DNA of 25,065 nt from a virus, in IMG/VR virus record IMGVR_UViG_3300033149_006669, positions 1 through 25,065 of that record; one strand, 5' to 3'. Below, one piece after another: positions 812-24,230 of this stretch. The notes under the pieces are model-generated. The model had not been told where the DNA came from. It searched no databases and saw nothing but the letters and a program-made list of their open reading frames with translations. A program made the position numbers and the translations under genes. How positions within the stretch are numbered: the stretch's first letter is position 1; each line of letters begins with the position of its first letter.

Positions 812-1084
812 CTAAGTTCGCAGGGTGATTGCGATCCAGCTTATATTCCGCATTCTCTCGGTCTGTCTGTCTTTCAGTGTTTCGGTGCCAATTTCCACGT
901 TGGAGACCTTCGCGTTCGTGGCGAATCTCCGACGCAGAACCTCTGCTACATCTACAGCTCGACTCATTGCCCTACCACGAGCTCGCAGGGTTACCTCACC
1001 CTGCTCATTCAGAGGGAGTAATGCAGCTGTAATGTAGACCAGAATTGGCTTATTTCCGACAAACACCGTAGTATTTTGCTCTAT
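812..1084 (-). CDS. albA: Alba-family DNA/RNA-binding protein
   Basis: The 90-residue product has the Alba signature: VFVGNKPILVYITAAL near the N-terminus (the lysine of the GNKP loop is the one acetylated in Sulfolobus Alba), ARGRAMSRAVDVAEVLRRRF in the middle, and an AITLR final strand. Alba proteins are small dimeric archaeal chromatin or RNA-binding proteins, so this copy could coat viral DNA or RNA or modulate host chromatin. The start is odd: a strong TTTGGAGGAG (1092-1101) is followed at 9-bp spacing by ATA (1082-1084), giving MEQNTTVFVGNKP, the normal Alba N-terminal length. Alternatives are ATG at 1132, which has no ribosome binding site and overlaps the upstream gene, or GTG at 1066, too far from the site. 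Family call is firm; start codon is inferred. Confidence 0.88.
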   Translation of the reverse strand: MEQNTTVFVGNKPILVYITAALLPLNEQGEVTLRARGRAMSRAVDVAEVLRRRFATNAKVSNVEIGTETLKDRQTERMRNISWIAITLRT

Positions 1085-1109
1085 TTTGGTTCTCCTCCAA
1101 ATAGTTCTT

Positions 1110-1511
1110 TTATGCCTCCCATTCCCATTCATCTGAAGCATTGACGAAATCTTCAAATGATCCCTTCCATTGAATCCTTCGAAGAATATACGGAAAATCA
1201 TTACTCTCACAGTAGTTTATTTCTTCCATAGAGTCTCCAATCATCAACGTAACTTGTTTCAATTCACAGTTAATCATGACCACTCGATAAACATCACTGT
1301 GCTGTCTAGTTCCTATCCCAAATCCTAATTCTCCATCTATATCATCTCTAATCATTCTTGAGAATATCATTCTTGCAAGGTACTCAGGGTCATCCCATCG
1401 TTCACCTCGTTTCAAGATTTCTCTAACCAGTTCGGGTAACTCGTCTGCACCCCAGTGAGTATATAACCAAACTCCTGTATCTTCAATAAGAACCTGTGCT
1501 CGATTTCCCAT
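1110..1511 (-). CDS. Conserved hypothetical protein (MGNRA...WGA type)
   Basis: ATG start 10 bp after TTTGGAGG; 133 aa, stop TAA. The opening MGNRAQVLIEDTGVWLYTHWGADELPE and the later RWDDPEYLARMIFSRMI and DDIDGELGFGIGT are patterns I associate from memory with a conserved uncharacterised family in archaea and phages, which I cannot confirm here. The protein is acidic, lacks cysteine clusters and transmembrane helices, and ends in a tryptophan-rich tail (DEWEWEA). Its stop lies just upstream of the Alba ribosome binding site, so the two are probably co-transcribed. Function unknown. Confidence 0.8.
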   Translation of the reverse strand: MGNRAQVLIEDTGVWLYTHWGADELPELVREILKRGERWDDPEYLARMIFSRMIRDDIDGELGFGIGTRQHSDVYRVVMINCELKQVTLMIGDSMEEINYCESNDFPYILRRIQWKGSFEDFVNASDEWEWEA

Positions 1512-4907: not shown

Positions 4908-5348
4908 TCAAGAAAGAAGAGCTTCTGGGAAATCAAATTCAATTTCCCATTCATTTCCTTCGCCATGAATTGTTTCTCGATATTCTGCGAAAACCTTTAG
5001 ATTACCGTATTTCTGAACAAGGTAGCAGAGCTGGACTATTGTAGGAGAATCAATAAAAGGCAGAAGCTCCTCAGCCCCCATTTTCTCCACCATGACTTCT
5101 TCGACTACACCTTGGTGGCTCATCGTAGCGCGAAACCTTGCTGCAAGCCCATACTCATCTCCCGATGAAGTCGTTGCTGTAACCTGCAGGAAATCGCTTG
5201 TTTCATGTCTTTCTTTCTTGTGGTGATACTCAAAAGGCTTGCTTTTCAAGACCATCGAGATTCGTTTACGTCTATCCTCCTTTGCTTTAAGTCTTTGAAA
5301 TTTAACTAAGATTGGTCCGAAACAGCGAATTAAATCTGAGATTTTCAA
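4908..5348 (-). CDS. Paralogue A of a virus-specific family, 146 aa
   Basis: TTG start (5346-5348) overlaps the upstream stop as TTGA and follows TTTGGAGG by 9 bases. Its C-terminal two thirds match the protein at 5638-6075: both share V-x-AT-x-x-SG, an LA-x-x-F stretch, EEL, IVQL-x-YL-x-Q, LKV and a terminal WE-x-EFDFP. The N-terminal 45 residues are basic (KFQRLKAKEDRRKR). No known domain recognised; a duplicated binding domain is likely. The gene at 5345-5590 lies between the two copies. Confidence 0.8.
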   Translation of the reverse strand: MKISDLIRCFGPILVKFQRLKAKEDRRKRISMVLKSKPFEYHHKKERHETSDFLQVTATTSSGDEYGLAARFRATMSHQGVVEEVMVEKMGAEELLPFIDSPTIVQLCYLVQKYGNLKVFAEYRETIHGEGNEWEIEFDFPEALLS

Positions 5349-5637: not shown

Positions 5638-6075
5638 TCATGGGAAATCAAATTCGACTTCCCATTTTTCGTCACGGAGTTCCGAGTCTGGCCAATCGTT
5701 CAAGTCTCGGAACTTCGCCTTTACCTTCAGCGGCTTACCATGATTCTGAATAAGGTAAGCCAACTGAACGATACAAGGCTGATCAGCCAGAGAACGGAGT
5801 TCCTCTGAGCCAAATACTCCACGTCGGGTTTGGCTCCCTGCATAATTTGAGCCAAACTCGAACTCTCCGGCAAGATTGAAAATCTCGCCGGAGGGAGCAG
5901 TGGCTTCCACTTCCAGGGCAGAATAACTCTCTCCCAGAGAGCCATTCCATTCCTGGACATGAGGTATCCCGCGAAGAACCTCCGCCACGCGGCAACTCTT
6001 CTCGTTCTCCTTCCTTACCTTCATCAACTGAGCTGCCAAAACGCCCAACTGATGAAGAAGCTCTGTCTGCTTCAT
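5638..6075 (-). CDS. Paralogue B of a virus-specific family, 145 aa
   Basis: The ATG at 6073-6075 is 8 bases after TTTGGAGG; an in-frame TTG at 6090 overlaps the ribosome binding site and is less likely. An N-terminal helix (KQTELLHQLGVLAAQLMKVRKENEK) could form a coiled coil. From residue 55 it matches paralogue A, ending WEVEFDFP. It is the first gene of the packed minus-strand cluster; a weak TATA-like GTTTAAG lies near 6113. Function unknown. Confidence 0.8.
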   Translation of the reverse strand: MKQTELLHQLGVLAAQLMKVRKENEKSCRVAEVLRGIPHVQEWNGSLGESYSALEVEATAPSGEIFNLAGEFEFGSNYAGSQTRRGVFGSEELRSLADQPCIVQLAYLIQNHGKPLKVKAKFRDLNDWPDSELRDEKWEVEFDFP

Positions 6076-6787
6076 TTGTTGTTCCTCCAAATAAAAGAAA
6101 GAGTAGCTGGCTTAAACACCAAGGAGAACACAACCCAATTTGGATATCTGGCTGAGAATAAACCAACTACCTCGGAGTTTCCTCCAACTTGATTCGGCTC
6201 TCGGGAATAATAAGGCTACCCCTTACCATCCCATGTTCGCAAAAGGAACATGGTTAGACCCGCGTAGGGAGAGAGTTCTTCCTCATTACCCTTAAAACTC
6301 TCTCTCCGTCACCCCTTCAGCGAGCTTAGGGGTTTGGAAGAACCCTGGGTCAGTCCCTCACCTACTTCTTCCCGAAATGGAAGAAATAGGCTTCACCTTA
6401 TTGGAGGTTTCGGTAACCCTCTCATGGTAAGAGGGTCGGGACTCGCCTTTACCCACCATATCTCTATGATGGAACCTCACTTCTATGAGCAGGTTCTCCC
6501 CGAGAACCGCCCAGTTTAACGAGAACTGAGAACGCTCAGAGTGCAGGGACACTCTCATCAAATCTCAAGCGCGGGACTTACCTTCCTCATCTCATCGGAA
6601 GAGTTTACGGCGCTTAGAACTTGATAAGAGCTGCGACTTCCGCACGGCTCGCTGGCTCGGAGGGAAAACAAGCTCTTTACTTGCAGACCTCCCGAGGAGG
6701 GAGGAAAGAGCTTTCGCCGCCCTTACACAAACTGAGTTCGGGGGTAAGGTAACTGCCCTCAACAAGAGGAAGAAGAAAAGGATGGAC

Positions 6788-9795: not shown

Positions 9796-9837
9796 TTTAT
9801 GGTGTAAATTATGAGGAAGGCACGCATCTGGGCGTTT

Positions 9838-9935
9838 GTCTCAAAAAAATGAGACAATCCTAGATTTTTGAGACAATCTTGTTTTTCTGGGACAATATCA
9901 AGATTTTGAGACTGTCTTGTTTTTCTGAGACTGTC
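9838..9935. repeat. Five 19-bp iterons (TGAGACAATC / TGAGACTGTC)
   Basis: The 10-mer begins at 9850, 9869, 9888, 9907 and 9926, exactly 19 bases apart each time: TGAGACAATC twice, TGGGACAATA once, TGAGACTGTC twice. The first copy is also one arm of GTCTCA-N6-TGAGAC (9838-9855). Regular iterons near palindromes in an AT-rich gap are typical of replication initiator binding sites or of multi-operator promoters. No initiator gene is recognised in the window. Confidence 0.65.
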
Positions 9936-9986: not shown

Positions 9987-10187
9987 TTATTTTTCGAGGT
10001 CTCTTTCGAGTTCATCTAAAAGCCTTTCGATGCTTTCGATGTCCTCGAAATCTATCTCGAAGCCACCCACTCGGGTAGTAGGGAACCCGTCGGCGTCCGC
10101 GAGATAGATTGCAACCCCATAATCTCGCGGGTAGACCAAAAATCGTGGCTCCATCATATCACCGCATTTACATCGTTCATCACTCAT
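9987..10187 (-). CDS. Acidic small protein with N-terminal CxC, 66 aa
   Basis: ATG at 10185-10187, no SD; stop TAA. The N-terminus has MSDERCKCGDMMEP, the middle is beta-rich (RFLVYPRDYGVAIYLADADG), and the end is an acidic helix (EDIESIERLLDELERDLEK). Two cysteines alone are few for a metal site unless it dimerises. Function unknown. Confidence 0.6.
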   Translation of the reverse strand: MSDERCKCGDMMEPRFLVYPRDYGVAIYLADADGFPTTRVGGFEIDFEDIESIERLLDELERDLEK

Positions 10188-10244
10188 ATTTAAGTCTTTA
10201 AAAATGCATCATCTGAAACATCTTAGACTCGAATAGGACAAAAA

Positions 10245-10260
10245 TGTTCCAAATGGAACA
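10245..10260. promoter_or_regulatory. Operator-like palindrome TGTTCCA-AA-TGGAACA
   Basis: Perfect 7-bp arms; a second copy with one base changed is at 10354-10369. It sits 58 bp upstream of the gene ending at 9987 and is presumably bound by a dimeric regulator. Confidence 0.5.
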
Positions 10261-10269
10261 ACTCCCCAG

Positions 10270-10322
10270 AAATATATAGAGGGGGGGCTTTAACAATTAA
10301 TAGAGGACTGTTAATTGTTAAA
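10270..10322 (+). promoter_or_regulatory. TATA box plus 34-bp palindrome, second copy
   Basis: AAATATATA (about 10270-10279) is followed by TTTAACAATTAA-N10-TTAATTGTTAAA (10289-10322). In reading direction it matches the minus-strand arrangement at 302-352, including the first three and last two spacer bases (TAG...TG). Here it points rightward into the 24-bp repeat array, where no plus-strand gene starts until 11218, so it may drive a non-coding transcript. Confidence 0.6.
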
Positions 10323-10340
10323 CAGAACACTATTAGAAAA

Positions 10341-10389
10341 ATCACTAGTGATATGTTCCAAATAGAACATTACTACTCCCGAGTAGTAA
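10341..10389. promoter_or_regulatory. Three successive palindromes
   Basis: ATCACTAGTGAT (10341-10352, perfect), ATGTTC-CAAATA-GAACAT (10353-10370, relative of 10245-10260) and TTACTACTC-CC-GAGTAGTAA (10370-10389) lie end to end. Such packing suggests a complex control or origin region. Confidence 0.5.
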
Positions 10390-10635
10390 ACTGAACAATT
10401 GTATATCTTCAAAGTAATATGAAAGTAATTATTATGATATTATGCCGAACTTGAATTAAGACTAACACTATTTGTAAATCATAAGTTTTAGTTTAATCTT
10501 ATATCGCTAGAGAATGGGCGAATGAAGTTTTTTCTAGAACTAAAACTATACATCTGTGAGCTAAAAATAGGTGTTCGGATTTTTAGCTAACACTAACACT
10601 TCGTAATAATTACATAATACTTTAGTCTCATACCA

Positions 10636-11075
10636 AACTCAAAATTAAGTTTCATGTTTAACTTAATATTAAGTTTTATTCTAAGCTTAAAATTAAGTTT
10701 CATCTTAAGCTTAAAATTAAGATTCAGCTGAGGCTTAATATTGAGTTTCAGTTTAGAGTTAATATTAAGATTTATATCAGACTTAAAATTAAGATTCAAT
10801 TTAAACTTAATATTAAGATTTAATCTAAGCTTAATATTAAGTTTCAATTTAGAGTCAATATTAAGTTCCATATCAGACTTAAAATTAAGATTCAATTGAG
10901 GCTTAATATTAAGATTCATCTTTAACTTAAAATTAAGTTTCATGTTAAACTCAAAATTAAGTTTCATGTTAGACTAAAACTTTGAAACTTTAGCTTCAGT
11001 TTTTACTTAAAATTAAGATTTAATTGAGACTAAAAATTAAGTTTTATCTGAAACTGAAACTTCAGTTTTTTCTGA
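10636..11075. repeat. Array of 14+ tandem 24-bp repeats with internal palindrome
   Basis: From 10636 to 10971 fourteen units of exactly 24 bases run head to tail without spacers; each has a core CTTAAAATTAAG or CTTAATATTAAG (a few with one change, e.g. CTCAA), which is itself a palindrome. Degenerate units continue to about 11075. Because 24 is a multiple of 3, an open frame of 8-residue repeats (K-L-N-F-K-L...) appears on the minus strand, but its ATG is inside a repeat and has no ribosome binding site, so I treat it as non-coding. TCGCTAGAGA (about 10504) and TCGCTAGCGA (about 11104) flank the array. Likely roles are origin iterons or a partition (centromere-like) site. Confidence 0.75.
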
Positions 11076-11150
11076 AATTTTAGTTTTATGACAGAGTAAA
11101 AGATCGCTAGCGACATAGACTGCCACCGCGGAGCAAAATTCAAAAGCTAT

Positions 11151-11178
11151 ATATCAAGATATCAAGATATCAAGATAT
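11151..11178. repeat. Short tandem repeat ATATCAAG x3
   Basis: Three perfect 8-base copies followed by ATAT lie just upstream of the promoter of the 11218 gene. Could be an operator array or DNA-unwinding element. The rest of 10188-11217 has no gene I can support. Confidence 0.5.
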
Positions 11179-11188
11179 ACCAATACAT

Positions 11189-11196
11189 TTATATAC
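11189..11196 (+). promoter_or_regulatory. TATA box for leaderless regulator gene
   Basis: TTTATATA lies about 25 bases before the ATG at 11218, with no SD between. This is the standard archaeal layout for a leaderless message. Confidence 0.65.
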
Positions 11197-11217
11197 ATCT
11201 AAATCAAAGATAAAAAT

Positions 11218-11367
11218 ATGGCAAGAATGCTTATAACAATCAGAGAGAAGACGGCTGAGCGGTTTCGGGAGGCGGCAATGCGGAAGTTTGGATGGGGCAG
11301 GGGTTCCCTATCAAGAGCGGCAGAAGAAGCCCTCATCCTCTGGCTCAAGGAGAATTCCACTACATAA
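11218..11367 (+). CDS. Small ribbon-helix-helix-like protein, 49 aa
   Basis: ATG start placed by the TATA box. The product starts MARMLITIREKTAERFREAA: a short strand, then a helix, a glycine-rich turn (KFGWGRGS), and a second helix (LSRAAEEALILWLKE). This resembles ribbon-helix-helix/CopG-like repressors of archaea, which bind palindromes as dimers. It could recognise one of the palindromic operators in the adjacent 1-kb control region; this is inference. It is the first plus-strand gene, ahead of the terminase. Confidence 0.7.
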   Translation: MARMLITIREKTAERFREAAMRKFGWGRGSLSRAAEEALILWLKENSTT

Positions 11368-11409
11368 AACACAAAGTTTTTAAGACCATAAGTAATATGC
11401 ATTATTCGA

Positions 11410-11871
11410 GTGAAAATGGCTCGCCCATGTAGTGTATGCAATCACCCTGACGTCGCAGAGATAAACGACCATCTCATCAGGGGCGATATGACATACAGAG
11501 AACTCTCCGAGCAATACGGACTCTCTCAATATTCTCTGGGCAATCACAAACGCAAATGCATCAAGAAAGTCATAGATGGCATGCAAAAACAGGTCATCGA
11601 GAAGATCAAGGCTTCATATCTATCCACAATCGATGCCTGCAACCTCGTCATTAACAAACTCCCAGAGATGATAGAAACAGGAGATCCGACCTTCACGCAA
11701 GTCCTGGAATTCATGAAGCTTCGTTCCGAACTCCTTGGCGAAAAATTAGGTCCTCCGGAAATCAAGATAGTCTGGGGCGCAGGACTCGAAGAAGAGGAAG
11801 AGGAGATAACAAATAAGGAAGCAGACGGTGAGGAGATTGCAGCGGAAATCTCTGAAATCTCCGGTGGTTAA
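11410..11871 (+). CDS. Terminase small subunit-like protein (zinc/HTH)
   Basis: The N-terminus has CSVCNH (C7, C10, H11), a helix-turn-helix region (MTYRELSEQYGLSQYSLGNHK) and HKRKC (H46, C50), the layout of phage small-terminase-like DNA-binding proteins. A middle helical part follows (LEFMKLRSELLGEKLGPPEIKIVW), with an acidic tail (EEEEEEITNKEADGEE). Small subunits recognise viral DNA and load the large subunit. Start is GTG 11410 or ATG 11416; a TATA-like GTTTTTAAG near 11375 fits the GTG as leaderless. Its 3' end overlaps the terminase large subunit by 44 bases, as expected for partners. Confidence 0.75.
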   Translation: MKMARPCSVCNHPDVAEINDHLIRGDMTYRELSEQYGLSQYSLGNHKRKCIKKVIDGMQKQVIEKIKASYLSTIDACNLVINKLPEMIETGDPTFTQVLEFMKLRSELLGEKLGPPEIKIVWGAGLEEEEEEITNKEADGEEIAAEISEISGG

Positions 11872-13105
11872 GAAAACCCTTCGAATTAACTATTCTCCAC
11901 ACACAGGACAGAACTTAGTCCACAAATCAAAAGCACGATTTAAGGTTCTAGTTGCAGGAAGGAAATGGGGCAAGACAACTTGTGGTGTCATGGAGGCCTT
12001 TCATTATCTCGGAAAACCAAACTCCGTTGTCTGGTGGGTGGCTCCATATCAAAGTGTCGCTCTCGTGGGCTGGAGAAGATTCCTCGAACTCGTTCCACGC
12101 CTGATCATAAAAAGCATAGACAAGAAAAACAGCACCATAACCCTCATAAATAACTCAACGGCGACATTCAAAAGTGCTGATAATGTCAATGCCCTCGTAG
12201 GAGAAGGCATAGATCTCCTTATCCTAGACGAAGCGGCGCGAATCAGAGAGAACACATGGCTCGAGACCCTTAGACCAAATCTAGACGATCCACGACATTT
12301 CGGACGTGCTCTTTTAATCTCAACACCCATGTCTCATAACTGGTTCTACAGAGCATTCGAGCTTGGTTTGAAACGGAAAAATGGATGGGAATCTTGGTCT
12401 CATCCTTACCTGAACCTCAGTGGAGGATTTCCATCATGGCTCAACCCCCACTTCAAGCAGGAAAGCCTTCAAGATGCGAAACGACTCCCAGAAAAAATTT
12501 TTCTTCAGCAGTACGCCGCCAGGTTCCTCCAAGACCTCGGAGAAGTCTTTCACGATGTCATGTCGGCACGCCAGGGAGACTTAGAACCAGCCCTCCCAGA
12601 AGAAGAATACTTCGCTGGGATAGACTGGGGTCGCTCTGATTCATTTACTGTGGTCACGATCCTGAATTCTTCAGGACACCTCGTTGCCTTCGATCGTTTC
12701 AGGCGAATGGCATGGAAACGTCAAGTAGCGAGAGTTGCAAGACTCCTTCGAGAATATAATGCCAGAGCTCTATGCGACAACACAGGAATCGGTGACCCGA
12801 TTTTCGATATGCTCTACTCTCATTACTCCAACATCCGTCCCTTCAAGATCAACGTGGGAAACAAAGCCGATCTAATAGAAAATCTCGTTGTCATGATCGA
12901 ACGAAAAGATATCACTTATCCTGATATCCCAGAACTTCTGGAAGAACTTGCAGTCTTCGGGGCAAAACAGCACAGTACGGGAACTTTCAAATATTCCGCC
13001 CCCAAGGGATTCCACGATGATTTTGTCATCTCTCTTGCTCTAGCCGCCTGGCAAATCCGAAAAAGGTCTCATGAAGCCGGATTTGCCTTCTTCCCGGTTT
13101 TCTAA
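11828..13105 (+). CDS. terL: Terminase large subunit (packaging ATPase-nuclease)
   Basis: GTG start, 425 aa, the usual size. Walker A is VAGRKWGKTT (residues 42-51), Walker B is LILDEAA (131-137), and STP (165-167) fits the coupling motif. The C-terminal RNase H-fold nuclease has the expected acids: FAGIDWGRSD (D266), ALCDNTG (D317) and FHDDF (D397/D398). The enzyme pumps DNA into the prohead at the portal and cuts it. The preceding small-subunit gene overlaps by 44 bases. All key residues are present, so it should be functional. Confidence 0.95.
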   Translation: MRRLQRKSLKSPVVKKTLRINYSPHTGQNLVHKSKARFKVLVAGRKWGKTTCGVMEAFHYLGKPNSVVWWVAPYQSVALVGWRRFLELVPRLIIKSIDKKNSTITLINNSTATFKSADNVNALVGEGIDLLILDEAARIRENTWLETLRPNLDDPRHFGRALLISTPMSHNWFYRAFELGLKRKNGWESWSHPYLNLSGGFPSWLNPHFKQESLQDAKRLPEKIFLQQYAARFLQDLGEVFHDVMSARQGDLEPALPEEEYFAGIDWGRSDSFTVVTILNSSGHLVAFDRFRRMAWKRQVARVARLLREYNARALCDNTGIGDPIFDMLYSHYSNIRPFKINVGNKADLIENLVVMIERKDITYPDIPELLEELAVFGAKQHSTGTFKYSAPKGFHDDFVISLALAAWQIRKRSHEAGFAFFPVF

Positions 13106-23657: not shown

Positions 23658-24230
23658 CTAACGGTTAGTGCTAATATCCCCTATTTTTTTCACTCGCAAG
23701 AGATACCAGATAGCTTGTTTGGTAACTCCGAATCGTTTTGCAATCTGGTTCAATGATTCAGTCTTTGCTAGTTTAACTATTTCTGGCCAATCTTCTTGTT
23801 TAATTTTATAAGGTAATCGTCCACCGCGTTTACCTATATAACCGCGAATTTTTAACCGGCTCATTCTCTTTCTGATTGCTTCTACATCCAGAGTAGAATC
23901 TTCTAAGGCGCTGATCATTAGTTCAACTTGCGTCTTCTTACGTCCACGCATATAGGACAAGAGCATTTTGAGCAATCGATGAGTTTCAGCCCTTCGGTTT
24001 ACATAGATTGCTTCCTGCGGGTACTTTCGATTTGTAAAGCGGTATCTGCGATAAGGGATTCCAAGTCGTTTTAGTATTTGCTCAACTTCATCCAAGTTTT
24101 GAATATCTTTAACGCTCTGACTAATCGAAACTCGATACTGAAAGTTTTTTCCAATTTTTTGGATTTGAAAATTACCATCACCCTCAAGAAGGCCTGCCAG
24201 CCACGCGAGGTCAATCTCTCTGGAGCTCAT
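23658..24230 (-). CDS. LAGLIDADG homing endonuclease, 190 aa
   Basis: The motif LAGLLEGDG is at residues 11-19, the single-motif form that works as a homodimer. Further features typical of the family are YRVSISQS, a stretch binding DNA (RRYRFTNRKYPQEAI), and a C-terminal helix-turn-helix (SLNQIAKRFGVTKQAIWYLL). It lies 5 bp after the capsid gene on the opposite strand, free-standing, not inside an intron that I can see. A TATA-like TTTAAGTA about 28 bases before its ATG indicates its own leaderless promoter. It is a selfish mobile gene that probably targets this locus in related viruses. Confidence 0.88.
   Translation of the reverse strand: MSSREIDLAWLAGLLEGDGNFQIQKIGKNFQYRVSISQSVKDIQNLDEVEQILKRLGIPYRRYRFTNRKYPQEAIYVNRRAETHRLLKMLLSYMRGRKKTQVELMISALEDSTLDVEAIRKRMSRLKIRGYIGKRGGRLPYKIKQEDWPEIVKLAKTESLNQIAKRFGVTKQAIWYLLRVKKIGDISTNR

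Follow-up and report, generated by a model that had tools for sequence, protein, structure and literature searches.

Gene content of the window

The window, the whole 25,065-bp stretch of viral DNA analyzed here, carries two arms of genes that diverge at an array of short palindromes, with leftward gene starts from position 10187 and rightward starts from 11218. The ∼1 kb between the last leftward start and the first rightward start is non-coding, and the array lies in its right half (Table 1). The nearest gene, starting 135 bp from the array, encodes a 49-amino-acid (aa) ribbon-helix-helix (RHH)-like protein. The protein itself had no Pfam or profile match, and its assignment derives from homologues (39 to 44% identity over ∼45 residues in the five best); six of the seven homologues scanned matched the Pfam family RHH_6 with E values of 2.7e−5 to 2.7e−3, all below the curated cutoff. 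A single-sequence structure prediction gave two helices and no strand (mean pLDDT, 74), a model that does not decide the fold. Next lie the gene of a helix-turn-helix (HTH) protein in small-terminase position (32 to 45% identity in the hits listed) and the large terminase gene. The right arm also encodes a metallophosphoesterase-like protein, a portal, a LigD-like protein, and a large protein whose gene lies between these two, as well as a prohead protease and the major capsid protein. A LAGLIDADG endonuclease-like open reading frame (ORF) is located directly 3′ of the capsid gene (23658 to 24230, minus strand), and an exact 63-bp tandem duplication, either real or an assembly artifact, is present near the contig end (24756 to 24881).

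The left arm includes a gene for a viral Alba chromatin protein (812 to 1210, minus strand; Pfam E value, 1.4e−13; just below the NCBIfam cutoff) and two paralogous proteins sharing 34% identity, whose family is not known (4908 to 5348 and 5638 to 6090). An irregular repeat cluster of the TGAGACAATCTTGTTTTTC type, with four to five copies of 18 to 20 bp, occupies positions 9836 to 9935 in the left non-coding block.

The host is an archaeon. Searches of INPHARED with the capsid protein returned only archaeal viruses (four records, ∼25% identity), and eight IMG/VR loci encode capsid proteins 56 to 74% identical to it. In the GTDB set, a capsid protein with 71% identity (locus L104) was found on a 49-kb contig of an Archaeoglobales metagenome-assembled genome, the scaffold name of which points to Guaymas. 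Because three of the related IMG/VR records are 48 to 51 kb long, the 25-kb contig probably represents about half of a genome of ∼49 kb, that of an archaeal tailed virus. Its packaging and capsid module recurs in the relatives. The set of loci compared at that stage contained no relatives of the left-arm ORFs tested, and searches with the KOW-domain protein and with the single TerL sequence likewise identified none. DNA matches to host candidates were short and weak, occurring in 6 of 59 genomes of the class to which the L104 genome belongs, and three of them fell inside the Alba gene.

Table 1. Positions of the array, of the features around it, and of palindromes in other elements. Positions are those of the window unless a locus is named.
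Feature	Position	Strand	Remarks
Main array	10638–10973	none	14 × (12-bp core CTTAAWATTAAG + 12-bp variable, weakly palindromic spacer); 96-bp period
Shifted array tail	11006–11065	none	Cores at 11006 and 11030; CTGAAACTTCAG at 11054–11065; called by TRF
124-aa octapeptide-repeat ORF	10593–10967	−	Spans array; judged non-coding on pN/pS, resampling, codon use, and AlphaFold
Palindrome TGTTCCAAATGGAACA, copy one	10245–10260	none	Palindrome scan
Archaeal-type TATA (10271–10278) + 34-bp AT-rich palindrome TTTAACAATTAATAG-N4-CTGTTAATTGTTAAA (10289–10322)	10271–10322	+	Reads rightward into array
Palindrome TGTTCCAAATAGAACA, copy two	10354–10369	none	Palindrome scan
Second copy of TATA-context palindrome	301–336	−	Ahead of leftward gene with GGAGGAG and ATG
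TCGCTAGCGA, right flank	11104–11113	none	Left flank TCGCTAG at 10504–10510; pair not significant
8-bp tandem repeat ATATCAAG × 3.5	11151–11178	none	Directly upstream of RHH gene TATA box TTTATATA (11188–11195)
49-aa RHH-like protein gene	11218–11367	+	Nearest gene to array; candidate binder
HTH protein gene, small-terminase position	11410–11871	+	Conserved in relatives
Large terminase gene (TerL)	11828–13105	+	First recognized gene of conserved head module
AT-rich palindromes in relatives	L019 15364–15401; L025 6098–6135; L004 14399–14430; L104 13785–13820, 20991–21028; L017 5916–5943
11-bp tandem palindromes ACTAATTAGTC	L104 13832–13871; L004 14445–14483		Beside one long palindrome
Three abutting 12-bp palindromes, type CYTAAATTTAAG	L122 1501–1536; L123 1501–1536; L129		Upstream of TATA-like box of small gene

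Architecture of the array

A first-pass annotation had described at least 14 units in exact phase, each with a palindrome, and the main block does consist of 14 units of 24 bp (starts at 10638 + 24k, k = 0 to 13). The phase holds for these fourteen only; after a 32-bp step two further cores follow, 24 bp apart and displaced in phase by 8 bp, and after them comes a symmetric variant palindrome. Within the main block the core was exact in 9 of 14 units, carried one mismatch in 4, and carried two in the remaining unit (at 10854). The array is 79% AT, in line with the AT richness noted earlier. Its 12-bp spacers are themselves weakly palindromic, with 6.5 of 12 positions self-complementary against 4.1 expected, and a 6-bp rhythm runs beneath the whole: 27 of 56 hexamers read NTTAAN, and 47 of 56 have T as the second and A as the fifth letter. 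Tandem Repeats Finder (TRF) scored the 24-bp period at 268 and a higher-order 96-bp period at 382, and also called a period of 24 across the tail (11005 to 11077). As the longer period outscores the shorter one, the array probably grew by the copying of four-unit blocks.

Between 10636 and 11083, 15 cores matched at 11 or more of 12 positions, whereas 1,000 dinucleotide shuffles averaged 0.053 such cores and never gave more than 2. The array is real, and a chance origin of its cores is excluded. A scan of the whole 25 kb placed all 15 sites with no more than one mismatch at the array locus and found none elsewhere.

Constraint on the palindrome and absence of a gene

Cores and spacers vary to different degrees. 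Letters deviating from the majority occupied 13 of 168 cells in the cores versus 44 of 168 in the spacers (Fisher P = 9e−6), and 7 of the 13 core deviations fall at one center position that can be either A or T. The variant at 11054 was changed in both arms together, so that its symmetry was kept. Since the core and the spacer of a unit are of the same age, and yet the cores vary far less, the cores appear to be constrained, and these counts indicate that selection acts on the DNA palindrome. Symmetric sites are usually the targets of protein dimers, and the array is very probably a protein-binding DNA array of some kind. The 24-bp pitch corresponds to ∼2.3 helical turns, so neighboring sites would face different sides of the DNA; a filament winding round the DNA would thus be likelier than one flat complex.

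The minus strand of the array carries an ORF of 124 open codons that reads as an octapeptide repeat from 10967 to 10593. Were it translated, for example as a beta-helix spike, the alternation of hydrophobic and polar residues and the weak profile matches to beta-barrels and T4 baseplate hubs would fit; such matches are, however, to be expected from any repeat that alternates in this way. The pN/pS ratio between units in this frame was 1.17, and the amino acid sequence is therefore without purifying selection. When the letters of each column were redealt among the units, the frame stayed open in 2,000 of 2,000 resampled arrays, so its openness is a by-product of the repeat. All 10 phenylalanine codons were TTT, compared with 51 of 174 in six virus genes, AlphaFold returned a mean pLDDT of 40.6, the frame does not extend into the shifted tail, and none of the relatives examined encodes a homologue. 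A coding role is thus extremely improbable, and an octapeptide-repeat protein was rejected on pN/pS, column resampling, and AlphaFold confidence; the earlier description of the array as free of genes is upheld by the same three results.

A known structured RNA was also discarded as a candidate, with no Rfam match at the gathering threshold. Both strands fold strongly (z of −8.2 and −9.3), as tandem palindromes would in any case. A cis-acting role for the array, as DNA that encodes no protein, is well supported.

Control region around the array

The run of other palindromes reported upstream of the array in the first-pass annotation was confirmed. Two TGTTCC palindromes lie in the control region beside the array, and between them an archaeal-type TATA sequence precedes a 34-bp AT-rich palindrome. 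The latter arrangement recurs near the left end of the window; the two copies were identical at 40 of 52 aligned columns, counted on the alignment, with a score of 66 against a best of 44 in 500 shuffles. This duplicated promoter-operator element, composed of a TATA sequence, a C- or G-rich run, and a palindrome of 34 to 36 bp, heads two different transcription units. The palindrome at 10289 to 10322, which is distinct from the array, is the likely operator palindrome of the window. The TCGCTAG sequences that had been noted as flanking the array are present at 10504 and 11104 and carry no statistical weight: four matches were found versus 1.8 expected, a count reached in 7 of 100 shuffles, and a functional pair was rejected.

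Between the array and the RHH-like gene, 8-bp tandem repeats abut the TATA box of that gene. RHH regulators of archaeal viruses bind tandem repeats and oligomerize along the DNA toward promoters (PMC5569661), and F55 of SSV1, which acts in this way at its own and early promoters, offers the nearest parallel to the 8-bp repeats. By analogy, these repeats look like the RHH protein's own operator, in which case a different protein may be the binder of the 24-bp array. F55 sites also differ from the array, having two tandem repeats per site as opposed to a series of 24-bp palindromes.

Distribution in related viruses and proviruses

The search for the array in related viruses, proposed in the first-pass annotation, did not find it in the relatives examined. 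Reading the region upstream of the small-terminase gene revealed no array in five related genomes (G001, G002, G006, G007, and G008), none was found in the genome carrying L104, and the paired-core pattern was absent at up to three mismatches from all eight IMG/VR records of capsid relatives. The exact paired-core pattern, with its own or a variable gap of 0 to 30, was not found in IMG/VR viral contigs, a search from which records very near the window were possibly excluded. The sole BLASTN hit of positions 10200 to 11400 was 27 bases long, in one Enterobacter plasmid; phages gave none. A filtered TRF analysis of 90 loci produced no comparable array, and in a periodicity scan of 30 sources the 24-bp excess identity was 0.42 in the window versus 0.23 or less elsewhere. 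The contigs of two of the closest relatives end at this very boundary, L026 starting inside TerL and L007 at the small-terminase start codon, so that the comparison covers relatives other than these closest cases.

What several relatives do carry are near-perfect AT-rich palindromes of 28 to 38 bp, of the type AATATTAAATAAATA..TATTTATTTAATATT, in intergenic positions and in several copies per genome. They are likely a family-wide operator. G002 has three intergenic copies, one of them between divergent genes upstream of the small-terminase operon; G001 and G007 have a palindrome at the same placement, and none was found there in G006 or G008 at the arm length scanned. The likely counterpart in the window is the palindrome at 10289 to 10322 and not the array, which suggests that the array was an addition to an ordinary operator-like control region. 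Other small ladders exist: L104 and G002 carry 11-bp tandem palindromes (ACTAATTAGTC, 3.5 copies) in another non-coding region. In this virus group, then, small ladders of palindromes can form elsewhere in the genome and from different sequences. In G008, a separate AT-rich non-coding stretch of 1.1 kb with irregular direct and inverted repeats (TTTAAGCCTTATTTCATGAA) is located at 10543 to 11683 of locus L022 and possibly serves that virus as an origin or control region.

When 392 genomes of the phylum were searched for the pattern, two matches were obtained versus one for the reversed control, so statistically the likeness is at chance level. Both matches were in related, methanogen-type proviruses, at the same small gene and with a TATA-like sequence directly downstream. 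Of the four loci examined, the palindrome triplet was also kept in a third genome (L129) and degraded in another (L127). No relatives of the small gene were found among phages or viral contigs; by our reading, the G238 element also encodes a Zot-like ATPase. With no descent implied, these examples show that promoters in archaeal mobile DNA can carry CTTAA..TTAAG palindromes spaced 12 bp apart.

Could the array, then, be an operator or enhancer? A viral RHH or HTH regulator would coat the palindromes and switch the divergent promoters (∼10205 leftward, ∼10275 and ∼11190 rightward) between early and late states. We regard this as a possible though rather unlikely role. It draws on the density of the control region, with its duplicated TATA-palindrome element, paired TGTTCC palindromes, and 8-bp repeats ahead of the RHH promoter; on an RHH-like gene (11218 to 11367) only 135 bp away; on the precedent of archaeal virus RHH proteins on tandem repeats (PMC5569661); and on the provirus triplet of CYTAAATTTAAG palindromes directly upstream of a TATA box. 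Set against it, at least 16 sites far exceed the needs of an operator, the 25 kb contains no scattered sites at one mismatch or fewer, the provirus resemblance is at chance level, and the likely operator palindrome of the window is a different element, with a second copy and with counterparts in relatives.

Replication, partition, or packaging

Iteron origins of plasmids and phages consist of tandem sites of ∼20 bp in AT-rich non-coding DNA, and the array likewise comprises tandem short repeats in non-coding, AT-rich DNA. A replication origin with iteron-like sites is the likeliest single reading of the array, and one that we hold tentatively. At least 16 predicted sites for a dimeric protein are arranged head to tail at a 24-bp pitch. 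Virus-encoded dimers would fill the palindromes cooperatively to form a filament, and strain from this filament would open the array or its AT-rich neighbors; replication proteins could then load at the opened DNA, leading to initiation. The binder may be the adjacent 49-aa RHH protein or a protein encoded in the other half of the genome.

Several features are consistent with an origin. The cores are conserved relative to the spacers (P = 9e−6), with symmetry kept even in the altered core at 11054, and all sites with no more than one mismatch are gathered in one locus, unlike those of a dispersed operator. The contig's lowest stability over 100 bp is reached inside the array (start at 10752), and segments starting at 10402, 10600, 10946, and 11135 are also among the ten least stable. 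The left and right gene arms part at the array. In G001 and G002, detrended cumulative GC skew, sampled every 1 kb, was lowest at ∼6 and ∼31 kb, respectively, that is, at the same gene boundary (5.9 and 30.4 kb), a test of origin that is confounded because gene orientation switches at that boundary. A published archaeal precedent is plasmid pTC1 of Sulfolobus, the origin of which was placed by skew and repeats in a repeat-rich, ORF-free region (PMC4390865); its repeats are short and dispersed, in contrast to the phased palindromes here.

Other results weigh against an origin. The GC-skew analysis that the first-pass annotation had recommended returned no minimum at the array in the window's own cumulative skew. 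No initiator or Rep gene was identified among the ORFs searched in the window, which probably covers about half of the ∼49-kb genome. The array was not found at the same boundary in the relatives and hence is not an origin conserved across the family. Iterons are typically direct repeats that lack palindromes and lie next to a rep gene, and the palindromic units are unlike these. The label "iteron" describes the shape of the array, which is a candidate member of the class. Also similar in form are the family of repeats of Epstein-Barr virus oriP and the hr regions of baculoviruses, which have many tandem units, each with a palindrome, and serve as origin, enhancer, or tether; these belong to eukaryotic viruses, and no kinship of sequence or protein is claimed.

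Tandem symmetric sites suited to dimers, here predicted sites with constrained cores, are equally a feature of centromeres of the sopC/parC type. In sopC (parS) of the F plasmid, twelve 43-bp units each contain a 16-bp inverted repeat bound by a dimer (PMC9178275), and the number and layout of the units resemble those of the array; the units here are 24 bp, and sopC lies next to sopAB, whereas no ParA gene was seen here. As a centromere-like partition site, the array would be loaded by a dimeric binder, and a ParA-type motor or tethering to chromatin would keep a plasmid-like form of the virus. This appears unlikely, although SegB of archaea recognizes its sites with an RHH motif (PMC9178275), an RHH-like gene lies 135 bp from the array, and the virus has a gene for an Alba chromatin protein. 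Searches revealed no ParA-type ATPase, either among the ORFs of the window submitted to Pfam, from a contig that is incomplete, or among ten ORFs of G001, where we read the AAA_5 match as MoxR-like, and there was no sign of lysogeny or of upkeep as a plasmid.

A further reading is a pac-like packaging start, at which the small terminase would bind the array to begin headful packaging. The terminase genes lie 327 bp downstream of the end of the array. The terminase and capsid genes of G001 belong to one gene order and yet are found close to opposite ends of the contig, which suggests circular permutation. However, the small-terminase-like protein is conserved in relatives (32 to 45% identity in the hits listed) in which the array was not found, and pac regions are not known to have so many sites. 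Packaging is accordingly highly unlikely as its role.

A replication origin is still the reading we favor. The original proposal of an origin or partition site stands in that the array is a cis-acting, non-coding element with an origin as its likeliest role; origin, partition, and operator functions are inseparable on the present evidence, and the skew minimum expected of an origin is missing from the window. In a combination of roles, the array would serve an archaeal tailed virus as a lineage-specific centromere-origin: a self-expanding palindrome ladder (6, 12, 24, and 96 bp) on which the RHH protein, perhaps with Alba, would build a chromatin-like filament that both licenses replication and maintains the viral genome extrachromosomally. 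This we consider quite improbable; if true, such an element would be new for archaeal head-tail viruses with respect to the literature found.

Significance

The element was not described in the literature searched on replication origins of archaeal viruses that contain iterons or tandem palindromes, within a scope that leaves out most subscription journals. To our knowledge, few origins or maintenance sites have been mapped in uncultured tailed viruses of archaea, and a phased palindrome array with an adjacent candidate binder provides a concrete, testable target. That relatives with ∼70% identical capsid proteins are without the array suggests rapid gain and loss of such elements. If the array is a centromere or an origin, it could supply a maintenance module for archaeal vectors.
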